The translations under genes and the position numbers were made by a program. The notes under the pieces were generated by a model. That model saw nothing but the letters and a program-made list of their open reading frames with translations, had not been told where the DNA came from and did not search any database. Below are positions 27,561 through 32,862 of a DNA stretch of 36,538 nt, one piece after another. The DNA comes from an uncultured Rhodospirillales bacterium (GTDB taxonomy: Bacteria; Pseudomonadota; Alphaproteobacteria; Azospirillales; Azospirillaceae). The DNA is taken from positions 1 to 36,538 of the forward strand of contig CAIZDL010000124.1 in the NCBI GenBank assembly GCA_903931735.1, read 5' to 3'. How positions within the stretch are numbered: position 1 is the first letter of the stretch; every line of letters begins with the position of its first letter.

Positions 27561-27676
27561 TCGGTGAGAGAACCAAAAATTCACATCATTCGACTAGGGG
27601 TGATAATCTCTCCTTGCATATTGCGCTCGTTAGGCCATCCTGCGAGCTTAGTTTTTTCCACTCGACGAGACATTAC

Positions 27677-28309
27677 ATGTACGACCGCTCTCCCCGTTCC
27701 TTCTCGGCACCCGCGATCACCCAGAGCGGCGCGCGTGCCACCGTAAAATGGTTCAACCCGACCAAGGGCTTCGGCTTCGTAACGCCGGAGGATGGGTCGC
27801 CCGATGCGTTCCTGCACATATCCGCAGTTCAGGCCGCCGGGCATGATGCGCTGCCGGAAGGGGCAACCATCATCTGCGACCTTTCCAGCGGCCCCAAGGG
27901 TCCGCAGGTCGCCTCGATCTCGTCGGTGGACACATCAACCGCGAGTTCCGGTGGTGGCCGTCCGCAGCGCTCTGGACCCCGCAATGATTTCGGGTCCGCC
28001 CCGCGCGGCGATTACGGGGCGGGATCGCGCAGCGATTTCGGCGGTGGCTCCCGTGGCCCCTCGCGCGCTGGCTGGGGCGGTCAGGACGACGACCAGGGCG
28101 GCGAGACGATCGAAGGCACCGTGAAATGGTTCAACTCCGACAAGGGGTTCGGGTTTGTCGCTCCCCATGGCGGCGGCAAGGACGTTTTCGTTCATCGCAG
28201 CGCGCTGGAGCGGTCCGGGGTGCATTCTCTTGCTGATGGCGAACCGGTGCGGCTAACTGTCCGCCAAGGACAAAAAGGCCCCGAGGCGGTTCGCGTCGAA
28301 GTTCTCTGA
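27677..28309 (+). CDS. Double cold-shock-domain protein
   Basis: A 210-aa protein with two cold-shock domains: about 20-84 (RNP1 KGFGFVTP, RNP2 DAFLHISA) and about 145-210 (RNP1 KGFGFVAP, RNP2 DVFVHRSA). Each would bind single-stranded RNA or DNA, as an RNA chaperone or anti-terminator. The domains are joined by a Gly/Arg/Ser/Asp-rich linker (about 92-142), probably disordered and possibly RNA-binding. Double-domain cold-shock proteins are common in alphaproteobacteria. The frame is open from 27542, but the ATG at 27677 gives the typical start just before domain 1. A strong terminator follows. Confidence 0.93.
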   Translation: MYDRSPRSFSAPAITQSGARATVKWFNPTKGFGFVTPEDGSPDAFLHISAVQAAGHDALPEGATIICDLSSGPKGPQVASISSVDTSTASSGGGRPQRSGPRNDFGSAPRGDYGAGSRSDFGGGSRGPSRAGWGGQDDDQGGETIEGTVKWFNSDKGFGFVAPHGGGKDVFVHRSALERSGVHSLADGEPVRLTVRQGQKGPEAVRVEVL

Positions 28310-28382: not shown

Positions 28383-28591
28383 GTGTCTTAAGGTCAAAAC
28401 GCGGCGTCGGTGCATGGCCCGCTAAATGCATGGCTCCATGCTGACCGCAGCGGTTTGCCCATCACCGCCCCGGCCTGGAGCAAGACACCTCCCCCTGCTC
28501 TTCTTTCCGGACCAAGCCCGGCACATTCTACCCGGCAAAGCCCGACCCCTGGATGGAAATGGACCAGGACTGGCCCTTAATGGAGGCCGCG

Positions 28592-28780
28592 ATGACCATT
28601 CATCAAGAAATCTGCCGTTATCGAGCCGGAAGCAGCCCATGTTGCGGGGAATTGGGCCACGACGACATCGCCGCCGACGCCGCCGAACTCGCGGTTTATG
28701 AAACCGCGCGCGCCCTCGGATATTTGACCACCCAAGCCGCGAGGATCGCCGCGTCCTATGGTCGCACCCTCAACTTATAG
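28592..28780 (+). CDS. Hypothetical small protein, 62 aa
   Basis: A 62-aa protein with GGAGG 5 nt upstream of the ATG at 28592; ATGs at 28553, 28559 and 28580 are in frame but lack such a site. The N-terminus holds three Cys (ICRY and SSPCCGELGHDD); the rest looks helical and Ala-rich (AADAAELAVYETARALGYLT). No membrane segment is visible and I do not recognise a family. It stands alone between the cold-shock terminator and the histidine kinase. The 282 nt before it contain the cold-shock terminator and nothing else I can support. Confidence 0.55.
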   Translation: MTIHQEICRYRAGSSPCCGELGHDDIAADAAELAVYETARALGYLTTQAARIAASYGRTLNL

Positions 28781-28960: not shown

Positions 28961-30517
28961 ATGACAGCCGCTGTCGATTGCGGGTTTGCCCCTACTGTGG
29001 CCGACTTGGTTGACGTTGCAAGTTTTTCCCAGGAATGGTTGTGGGAAACCGATGCGAACGGCATCCTGTGCCGCCTCTCGGACCGCTATGACCAACTAAT
29101 TGGCGCCCGGAGCGCCGATATACTCGGCCATCGCCTCATCGAACTGCTAGAGCCCTCGCCTAGCGGGAATGCGTGCGACCATAACCACATTGTCAGGGCG
29201 CTGACGTTACGCCACAGCTTTGCCGGCCGCGTTTGCAGCCTGAAGGCGTCGCCTGGGCGGACTATCGTGACGCGGCTCGGCGGCAAACCGCGCTATGACA
29301 CCAACGGCAACCACCTCGGTTTCCTCGGACTCGGCACCGACGTAACCGAGAGCTTTCAGCGCGAACGGGCATGGCTCGACAGCATCGCCCAAAGCGAGTT
29401 GCTGGTTGCCACCATCGAGTCCTGCCCGGTCAGCATCTCGATCGCCGACGCGTTGCGCCCGGGCCTACCGCTGATTTACGTCAACCCCTCATTCACCCGC
29501 ATTACCGGCTACGCCCTGCACGAGGTCATCGAGCGCAACTTCGACTTTTTGCAAGGCCCCGACACGGACCCGGCAACAGCGCGCCGCATCTCCGAATGTC
29601 TTCATATGAAAAAGACCTGCGACGTTGAAATTCTCAACTATCGCAAAGACGGGACACCATTCTGGAACGCTTTGGTGTTTGCGCCTCTTGTCCGCCACGG
29701 TCAAATCGTGGCCTTTATCGGTGTTCAAAGCGACATTACCGATAAAAGGGCCGAACAGCAAGAACTCCAGCGCCGCCACCGGCTTCAGGCCCTAGGGCAA
29801 CTTGCGGGCGGCGTGTCGCACGAAATCAATAACCTGCTGCAACCAATTCTGAGCTACGCTGAACTGGTCCAGACCGAGATCACGGCCAGTCATACGACTG
29901 CCGCCAAGCGGCTGGGAAAAGTGCTTTACTGCGCGGAACAGGCCAGAGACATCGTGCGCAATGTATTGCGTTTTTCGCGGACCGATGAAAATACACTCAG
30001 CGAGCTTGATCTTGCGGCGGCTCTTTCAGAATCCGTCGAATTTGTTCGCGATTTGCTGCCGGCAACGATTACGGTTGCGGTTCGAGGCATCGACTCCGAC
30101 CTTGGTGTCGGCTGGATCAACGCCGTCGAAATGACCCAAATCGTGACCAACCTCCTGAACAACGCCGTCCAGGCCATGAAGGGGCGGGGCGAGATTGCGG
30201 TCGAGGCCGGGACAGCCTACGTCGCGCCCTACCAAGCCTCGCTGCTCGGCGTCGTTGCTGGCGATTATTGCGTGGTCACCATCACCGATACCGGGCCGGG
30301 CATGGATGAAGCCGTCCTGTCGCGCCTGTTTGAGCCGTTCTTCACCACCAAGCCGCTCGGCCAAGGCACCGGGCTTGGGCTTTCCGTGGTTTATGGCATC
30401 CTGCAAAATTGGCGCGGTACAATTTCGGCATCCAGCAGCTCGGGCCGGGGCGCCAGCTTCACCCTGCACATCCCTCTGGTATCCGCTTTGGCCGTGACCT
30501 CCACCCACTCCGACTGA
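28961..30517 (+). CDS. PAS/LOV-like sensor histidine kinase without photoactive Cys
   Basis: A 518-aa cytoplasmic kinase with no membrane segment. The first PAS domain is at about 18-130 ([12 protein letters not shown] ... GLGTDVTE). The second, about 145-262, has LOV features: [11 protein letters not shown], the LOV core [15 protein letters not shown] (192-206), and flavin contacts Asn226 (NYRKDG), Asn236 (FWN) and Gln256 (GVQSDIT). Phe194 takes the place of the adduct-forming Cys (NCRFLQ in true LOV). Dimerisation/phosphoacceptor His287 is in [13 protein letters not shown]. The ATPase domain has the N-box (TNLLNNAVQ), DTGPGMD, and GTGLGLSVV. The start has only a weak ribosome site. A chemoreceptor gene starts 11 nt after its stop, and no response regulator is adjacent. 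Confidence 0.92.
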
Positions 30518-30528
30518 GGACTTCCGAT

Positions 30529-32862
30529 ATGGCATCCTGGCTGAATCGCTTCTACATCGGCACAAGAATATATGCTGGCTTCGCCATCATCTTGTTGCTA
30601 TTGGGCGTTCTCGCCTACATTTCATACCGGAGCCTCGACACCATTGCCGGGCTTCAGGCCGGCTCGGTTAGCTATGCCAGCGATGCGCTGGAAGTCCAGA
30701 GGATCGAACGCAATCTGGTTGGTATGCGGCGCAATATTTCGATCTATCTCGCAACCGGCAGCGTTACGGAATTCAAACGGGCGGAAGAACTGGCGGGCAT
30801 CATCAAAGGCCAGTTTGAAACACTGGAGCACACTCTCAAAGATCCCAAATTTCGGTCTTCGGCAGATGAACTGCGTAAACAAACCGAAGCTTACTTCACC
30901 ACCGCCAATAAAGCCGTGAAAATTCGCGACGCGCGCGACTGGATCATGGAGACCGGCTTTATTCCCAATACAGAATCGGCGACGATCAATCTCAACCGAG
31001 TCATGGATGCCGCGATGAGCACCGGCAACTTTGAGCTGACAACCTATCTCGGGGTCGCCAAAGAGGCGATTTGGGCGCTCCGCTACGAGGCCGAGCGCTT
31101 TGACGCCACCGGCGAAGCCGATCACGCCACCAAAGCCAAAGCCGAGATGGATCAGTTGAAGAAGGCGATTCTCGAGATTGCCGCCCGTGTCGAAGACCCA
31201 ACGCTTCGGTCCCGCATCATCAAAGTTCAACAGCGGGTGACAGAGCTTAGTGAAACTTTCGAAAAACAAGTTGGCTATATTACAAGTTATCACGAAATAT
31301 CCAACAAAACCTTGGTGGAGATGGCCGAGACTCTCAAAACTCTGTCCATGAAGTTAACCTCCGACATTCAATCCGGCCTGGATGAACTTAACGGGCAGTT
31401 AAACCAAACCATCAACGACACCACCCACACCACGGTTGGTCTTTCATTAGCAGTTTTCGTTGGCGGCTTCCTGATCGCTTGGTTAATCGGTGCTGGCATT
31501 TCGCGTCCAATCATCGGCATGACCAAGACCATGAGCAAACTGGCCGCTGGCGACAATGCCATTCTGGTTCCCGCCCTCGACAATCTTGATGAAATCGGCG
31601 ATATGGCTCGTGCCGTTCAGGTGTTCAAAGAAAGCGCAATAGAAAACGAACGTCTGAAGCAAGCACAAGAAATTGAGGAAAAATCAAAGCGGCATCGTCA
31701 AGAGGAATCCGAAGAACTGATTGATATGTTTGGCTCCAGCGTTTCGGGCGTATTTGGAAGCCTTTCCGAAGCCTCGTCGGCCATGGCCACAACTGCAAAA
31801 TCGATGAACGATATCTCCAACGAAACCAATCACCAAGTCGACATCGTCACCCACGCCATCGGGCAAACCAGCGAAAACGCGCAGTCCGTAGCCTCGGCCT
31901 CCCAAGAGCTTACTGCGGCCATCGGTGAAATCGGCCGCCTGATCCACTCCTCCAGCAACGTTGCCGCTGAAGGTGCCAATCAATCCCGTGAAGTCATCAA
32001 CAAAGTTGAAATGCTCCGTCAAGCATCGGAGCGTATTGGAAATATCATTGGCATTATTTCAACCATCGCTAGCCAGACCAATCTCCTCGCCCTCAACGCT
32101 ACGATTGAAGCAGCACGGGCCGGCGATGCGGGTAAAGGCTTTGCGGTGGTGGCGAGCGAGGTTAAATCACTTTCCCAACAAACCCAAAAGGCCACTGTCG
32201 ATATTGCGGAACAAATCACCGGCATTCAGGACTCGATCTCGAGCACCGTCGACTCCGTACAGGCAATCGGCAAAACGATCACCCACATTCACGAATCGAC
32301 CAACGAAATCGCTGCCGCCATCACCGAACAACAAAGCGCAACCAACGAAATCGCTCGCAATGTTCAGTTTGTCTCCTCAAGCGCAGATGAAATCTCCCAC
32401 AGCATAAAATTGGTTCGCGATGCCGCCGATCAAACGATCAGCGCCTCGACCAAGGTGCGCGACGCTTCCGATACCATGTCGGGTCAGGCCGAAAAGTTAA
32501 GCGTTGAGGTGAAAGACTTCCTCTCGGCGATCAAGGGTGCTGGAACCCAGCACGAATTTCAACGCCTTTCGGTCAATATTCCGGCGCAACTTGTCACGGA
32601 AAACGGCACCAAAGCCGCCACCAGGGCGAACCAAATCTCCATTGGCGGCGCATGGCTCGCCACCCGCGTCGACCAACCGCTCGGCTCCACGGTCGAAATC
32701 TCTCTCGAAGGCGTATCTCGCCCAATAAAATCGCGCGTTGCGGGTCTAACAGAGACAGGCACTCGCCTACAATTCCCGATGGACACCGCCCACCTCTCCT
32801 TTATGGTCGGTGTTATCCAACAACTGGCCCAAACAACCGGTAGAAAGCGTGTGACAACCTGA
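30529..32862 (+). CDS. Methyl-accepting chemotaxis protein with C-terminal PilZ-like domain
   Basis: A 777-aa chemoreceptor. TM1 is at about 13-33 and TM2 at about 303-326. Between them lies a helical periplasmic sensor region of about 270 residues. HAMP follows (about 325-378), then the cytoplasmic coiled coil with the highly conserved tip (about 513-550, [19 protein letters not shown] then [14 protein letters not shown]). After about 670 comes a PilZ-like domain (about 675-765) with NxSxGG intact (N701-Q-I-S-I-G-G707), but the RxxxR motif reads R679-L-S-V-N683. MCP-PilZ fusions are known from Azospirillum Tlp1. The ATG at 30529 has GAGGA 8 nt upstream; the kinase ends 11 nt before it. Confidence 0.93.

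Follow-up and report, generated by a model that had tools for sequence, protein, structure and literature searches.

The second PAS domain (PAS2) of a sensor histidine kinase from an uncultured Rhodospirillales bacterium resembles a LOV domain but has phenylalanine at the site of the adduct-forming cysteine. The kinase gene lies at 28961..30517 on the forward strand of the 36,538-nucleotide stretch of DNA analysed here (the window). In our preferred reading, which we hold with about even confidence, PAS2 is a derived LOV domain whose blue-light adduct chemistry was lost with the Cys and whose tight FMN binding was probably lost too. Selection would have retained the domain in the kinase, where, most likely blind to light, it would serve as a relay or PAS input and transmit a dimer conformational signal to HisKA, the source of that signal being either PAS1 or a non-FMN ligand.

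The kinase is 518 aa long and has the domain order PAS1–LOV-like PAS2–HisKA–HATPase_c, without a receiver domain. Pfam identified two PAS regions, HisKA (2.2e-8) and HATPase_c (8e-24). On the forward strand, PAS1 (residues 18-132) occupies 29012..29356, PAS2 (residues 145-268) 29393..29764, the HisKA/DHp domain 29792..29989 and HATPase_c 30125..30478. The hallmarks of a HisKA-type sensor histidine kinase are all there, namely the phospho-acceptor His287 (29819-29821) and the N (397), G1 (443), F (457) and G2 (469) boxes, and the kinase looks intact from its sequence. The assembly is a draft of 291 contigs, and in principle the Phe could be an assembly error or the kinase a pseudogene. A dead gene is contradicted by the full reading frame, the intact H, N, G1, F and G2 motifs and the low dN/dS given below. 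A chance event or sequencing slip at Phe194 was ruled out by the syntenic orthologue in a congeneric genome (G002), in which this codon is TAC (Tyr) and both Glu191 and Asp195 recur. We regard an artefact or a dead gene as extremely improbable.

The origin of PAS2 was examined by sequence and structure comparison. The top phmmer matches in the PDB were LOV domains (9vf7, E=6e-29; CagFbFP, E=5e-28; also CrPhot LOV1). The AlphaFold2 model, built on an alignment of five sequences, had a mean pLDDT of 89.8, and the best Foldseek matches listed for it were all LOV structures or LOV-based constructs, with 9vf7 at a TM score of 0.90 and an rmsd of 0.8 A. PAS2 is thus predicted to adopt the LOV fold. 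Residues were numbered by AsLOV2, using a sequence that matches PDB 2v1a letter for letter. The initial annotation had placed the LOV domain at 29396-29746, which is in frame and corresponds to residues 146-262, and had described Phe194 at the Cys site together with three retained flavin contacts. These observations were all reproduced: Phe194 (TTC, 29540..29542) aligns with C450, Asn226 (29636..29638) with N482, Asn236 (29666..29668) with N492, and Gln256 (29726..29728), the signalling Gln, with Q513. Three further changes had not been recorded. Glu191 (29531..29533) replaces the LOV motif glycine (G447), and Asp195 (29543..29545) and Ser211 (29591..29593) replace R451 and R467, the two conserved arginines that touch the FMN phosphate in all LOV proteins according to the DsLOV paper (PMC4335406). 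The motif of PAS2 is E191-R-N-F194-D195-F-L-Q versus GXNCRFLQ in LOV domains. Compared with a canonical blue-light receptor, PAS2 has the predicted PAS/LOV fold and the N482/N492/Q513 contacts but lacks the adduct Cys and both phosphate arginines. With Phe at position 194, the classical Cys adduct cannot form. The definition of LOV* domains in Yee et al. 2015 (PMC4682037) requires absence of the Cys and at least nine of the other conserved LOV residues (YtvA G59, N61, R63, F64, L65, Q66, N94, N104 and Q123), and PAS2 falls outside it because Glu191 and Asp195 replace the equivalents of G59 and R63; the other seven of the nine are kept (N193, F196, L197, Q198, N226, N236 and Q256).

That LOV domains can signal without the Cys, as the initial annotation had stated, is confirmed by Yee et al. 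2015 (PMC4682037), where Cys-less VVD, YF1 and BAT-LOV* are precedents and natural Cys-less LOV domains numbered about 70 entries. The Cys-devoid LOV* domains, including BAT-LOV*, resemble PAS2 in having the adduct Cys replaced and other contacts kept, but the class names Ala, His or Pro at the Cys site, whereas the window has Phe. PAS2 may accordingly still bind FMN, FAD or riboflavin and signal without an adduct, by semiquinone photoreduction or cellular redox, through Gln256 and the beta-sheet. This redox or light sensing, also put forward in the initial annotation, is in our view a tentative possibility, and it remains the main rival to the preferred reading because the Asn226/Asn236/Gln256 triad survives in both the Phe and the Tyr members, the window protein and G002. 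The high-confidence predicted LOV fold favours it as well, as does the conservation of Asn482 in 27/31 non-Cys relatives (described below), the equivalent N85 of PpFbFP being the most mutation-sensitive pocket site tested, with 141/161 changes deleterious (PMC3488000). The proposal is weakened by the joint loss of both arginines and the motif Gly, which supports the preferred reading, by the acidic Asp next to the phosphate site and by the bulky aromatic residue at the Cys site. In the PpFbFP saturation study, fluorescence fell strongly with 60/117 of the random substitutions at the Cys site (PMC3488000).

We rejected the loss of the arginines as proof that no flavin is bound. Changes at either Arg of PpFbFP were mostly neutral (152/180 and 120/138; PMC3488000), NifL lacks both, and BAT-LOV*, which has Pro at the Cys site, accepts loading with FAD, FMN or riboflavin (PMC4682037). 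The parent protein of PpFbFP carries an extended arginine cluster (PMC5314338). NifL PAS1 of Azotobacter vinelandii (PDB 2gj3) has Glu for the Cys, Ser for the first Arg and Trp for the second, and keeps Asn482; it differs from the window protein in having Ala and His at the positions of Asn236 and Gln256. NifL is an FAD-bound redox sensor, its PAS1 binding FAD (PMC3466315), whereas a flavin in PAS2 is putative. The LOV receptors without the Gln that Dietler et al. 2022 (PMC9098866) described are, like PAS2, a natural loss of a once-"essential" LOV residue; they were picked by loss of the Gln, whereas in PAS2 the Gln is present and the Cys is missing. A natural Phe at the adduct-Cys site also occurs in a LOV protein from Lake Diamante. 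As far as the accessible text of that report goes (PMC12202551), the protein is archaeal, its sequence was listed while a different one was characterised, and Arg losses are not mentioned, whereas PAS2 lacks both arginines. Cys-less LOV domains, including one with Phe, are therefore already known (PMC4682037; PMC12202551). What is new, at the level of sequence, is an aromatic pair with the full Asn/Asn/Gln triad and no phosphate clamp, in a genus that shows intermediate states.

To place the substitution within the genus, we compared five congeneric genomes, the window's own (G000) and G001, G002, G003 and G004. The Cys site is Phe in G000, Tyr in G002, Cys in G003 and Leu in G001 and G004. 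The G002 kinase is 72% identical to the window kinase, and synteny between the two genomes extends over the whole compared stretch, with a tRNA synthetase gene at one end, a phosphoserine transaminase gene at the other, and the kinase and a chemoreceptor in between. Free variation of orthologues at the flavin contacts, named in the initial annotation as evidence against a flavin sensor, was found in part. G002 keeps Asn/Asn/Gln, but Asn236 is Ala in G003, and in the Leu-type domains of G001 and G004 all three contacts are gone (Asn226 to Gln, Asn236 to Cys and Gln256 to His). The losses in G003 and the paralogues count against flavin binding. The Cys-bearing domain of G003 already has the sequence N-C-D. 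This genome also carries a second, Leu-type LOV-like kinase that ends at a contig edge (L201, G003:C39), so that the genus has at least two groups of LOV kinases and the Leu-type proteins are probably paralogues, not variants of one gene. No LOV kinase was found beside the acetyl-CoA-synthetase-like and cold-shock genes in G001, G003 or G004, within the reach of the contigs, whereas G000 and G002 have one there.

In the tree, the five congener proteins formed one clade (100/99) in which the Cys-bearing G003 protein branched first, with the Phe/Tyr pair (100/97) and the Leu pair (100/100) nested inside. Outside the genus, the nearest kinases with this domain architecture carry a canonical GRNCR or GSNCR motif. 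Since the change of Arg451 to Asp is already present in the Cys-bearing congener, the erosion looks stepwise. The simplest order would have Arg451 changing to Asp first, followed by loss of the Cys and Arg467, with the ring contacts lost later in the Leu group. Given this stepwise loss of light chemistry in its relatives, PAS2 has probably ceased to sense blue light in the ordinary way. A scan of the genome contigs with the whole kinase returned mainly matches to the kinase part only, plus one congener.

PAS2 is under strong purifying selection. Between the window and G002, whose synonymous sites are strongly diverged, dN/dS was 0.11 for PAS2, 0.14-0.19 for the kinase parts and 0.34 for PAS1, which evolves fastest of all kinase modules. 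The low value for PAS2 indicates that its fold is not decaying. The flavin pocket, defined as 16 flavin-contact sites listed in PMC4335406, behaved differently from the rest of the domain. Across the 78 related domains described below, the identity of the pocket exceeded that of the rest by 0.07 to 0.17 in pairs of Cys-bearing domains, whereas in pairs without Cys it was lower by 0.10 to 0.22, the pairs being non-independent. For the window and G002, pocket identity was 0.62 versus 0.80 for the rest of the domain, a deficit that is weak by itself with 16 sites (binomial P about 0.08); taken over all pairs, the contrast holds throughout. The summed volume of the ring-side residues, which ignores geometry, was larger in the window protein than in 45/49 Cys domains and larger in G002 than in 49/49. 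The less conserved pocket and the bulky side chains count against the sensing function first proposed; what stands of that proposal is the description of PAS2 as LOV-like, naturally devoid of the Cys and still equipped with the contact triad. Together with the replaced motif residues, they suggest weak or no flavin binding by PAS2, and a role as a relay or in binding an alternative ligand.

The same selection data bear on a further explanation, that PAS2 has gained a different, specific non-flavin small ligand and that the losses reflect neofunctionalisation rather than relaxation. Two findings favour it: purifying selection extends over the whole domain in both the Phe/Tyr and the Leu groups (dN/dS 0.11-0.12), and the Leu-type copies of three genomes share one fixed new residue set, Leu/Gln/Cys/His at C450/N482/N492/Q513. 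The 6/16 pocket sites at which the Phe and Tyr domains differ, however, speak against a new site being tightly fixed in these two, and the sequence names no ligand. We consider a new specific ligand improbable.

We extended the comparison to the bacterial family and class. The strict motif GRNxRFLQG was found 21 times in 385 genomes from across the class, with Cys in 19 cases, Pro in one and Asn in one; the Asn-bearing case had no LOV match. The family and class yielded 78 distinct LOV-like domains, 47 with the Cys and 31 without it, and a tree built with the pocket columns left out, which has few columns and weak forks, required at least eight changes of Cys state. Judged from these counts, Cys loss is recurrent in this bacterial family. 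Arg451 was kept in 46/47 Cys domains versus 8/31 non-Cys domains, although these are related sequences, uncorrected for kinship, for which a Fisher P would be an unfair probability. Only the window protein and G002 had the full Asn/Asn/Gln triad among the 31 non-Cys domains. Canonical LOV histidine kinases of the same family (for example loci L123, L122 and L124, in G006, G076 and G071) share the domain order of LOV followed by HisKA/HATPase and are 42-44% identical to the window kinase over the core. Their motif is GRNCR, and they carry the first Arg, in most cases also the second, and Asn/Asn/Gln, whereas the window kinase reads ERNFD, with Ser in place of the second Arg.

A separate pattern was seen in a large group of LOV-like kinases of genus g11, in which the signalling Gln (AsLOV2 Q513) is replaced by Cys (loci L151, L184-L187, L188-L194, L196, L197, L204, L206, L207, L209, L211, L212 and L216). 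Cys513 was carried by 17/31 non-Cys domains and 4/47 Cys domains. At C450, some members of this group keep the Cys and most have Gly, Ser, Ala, Pro or Ile. A Cys at site 513, near the flavin, might have a chemistry of its own.

The kinase gene is followed at 30529..32862 on the forward strand by a chemoreceptor gene (HAMP and MCP signalling domains), the ATG of which lies 11 nt past the kinase stop. Arrangement and spacing are identical in G002, and the two genes are likely to be co-translated, which may also link them functionally. The chemoreceptor has a weak C-terminal PilZ match (E 6e-4, under the Pfam cut-off) that, if true, would connect it to c-di-GMP. It is conceivable that the aromatic-for-Cys lineage, Phe here and Tyr in the sister genome, keeps Asn/Asn/Gln as a dedicated non-adduct flavin sensor feeding this chemoreceptor-cotranslated kinase. 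Such a sensor would respond to redox state; the Tyr form could instead use photoreduction, with its ring, next to the flavin, as electron donor. We think such a sensor unlikely. Upstream, between the kinase and a cold-shock gene, a forward-strand ORF of 75 aa with no family match (28553..28780) keeps its frame in the corresponding, syntenic region of G002 (56% over 87 aa), and its link to the kinase is putative. The cold-shock gene (27623-28306) encodes a protein with two cold-shock domain matches and adjoins an acetyl-CoA-synthetase-like/acetyltransferase gene in all five congeners. No cognate response regulator was found beside the kinase among the window genes scanned. Plasmid carriage was rejected, the plasmid matches being distant LOV/PAS kinases only.

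A photosynthetic life style was likewise rejected as context, since none of the five congeners has a reaction-centre gene. BLUF domains were present in two of the five (G002:C157:4140-4412 and G001:C93:6637-6909), and no BLUF protein was found in the window's genome, where PAS2 was the sole LOV-like domain found. With LOV, BLUF and reaction-centre genes searched, this genome gives no independent sign of blue-light physiology.

If PAS2 binds a flavin, it would be a natural test of LOV signalling when the Cys gives way to an aromatic residue and the phosphate clamp is missing. If it does not, the congeners would form a graded series from a light receptor to a light-blind PAS module, with Cys and Asp first, then Phe or Tyr, and a separate Leu branch. 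In both cases, a Cys-less GXNCRFLQ-like motif from this bacterial family should not lead to annotation as a blue-light sensor.
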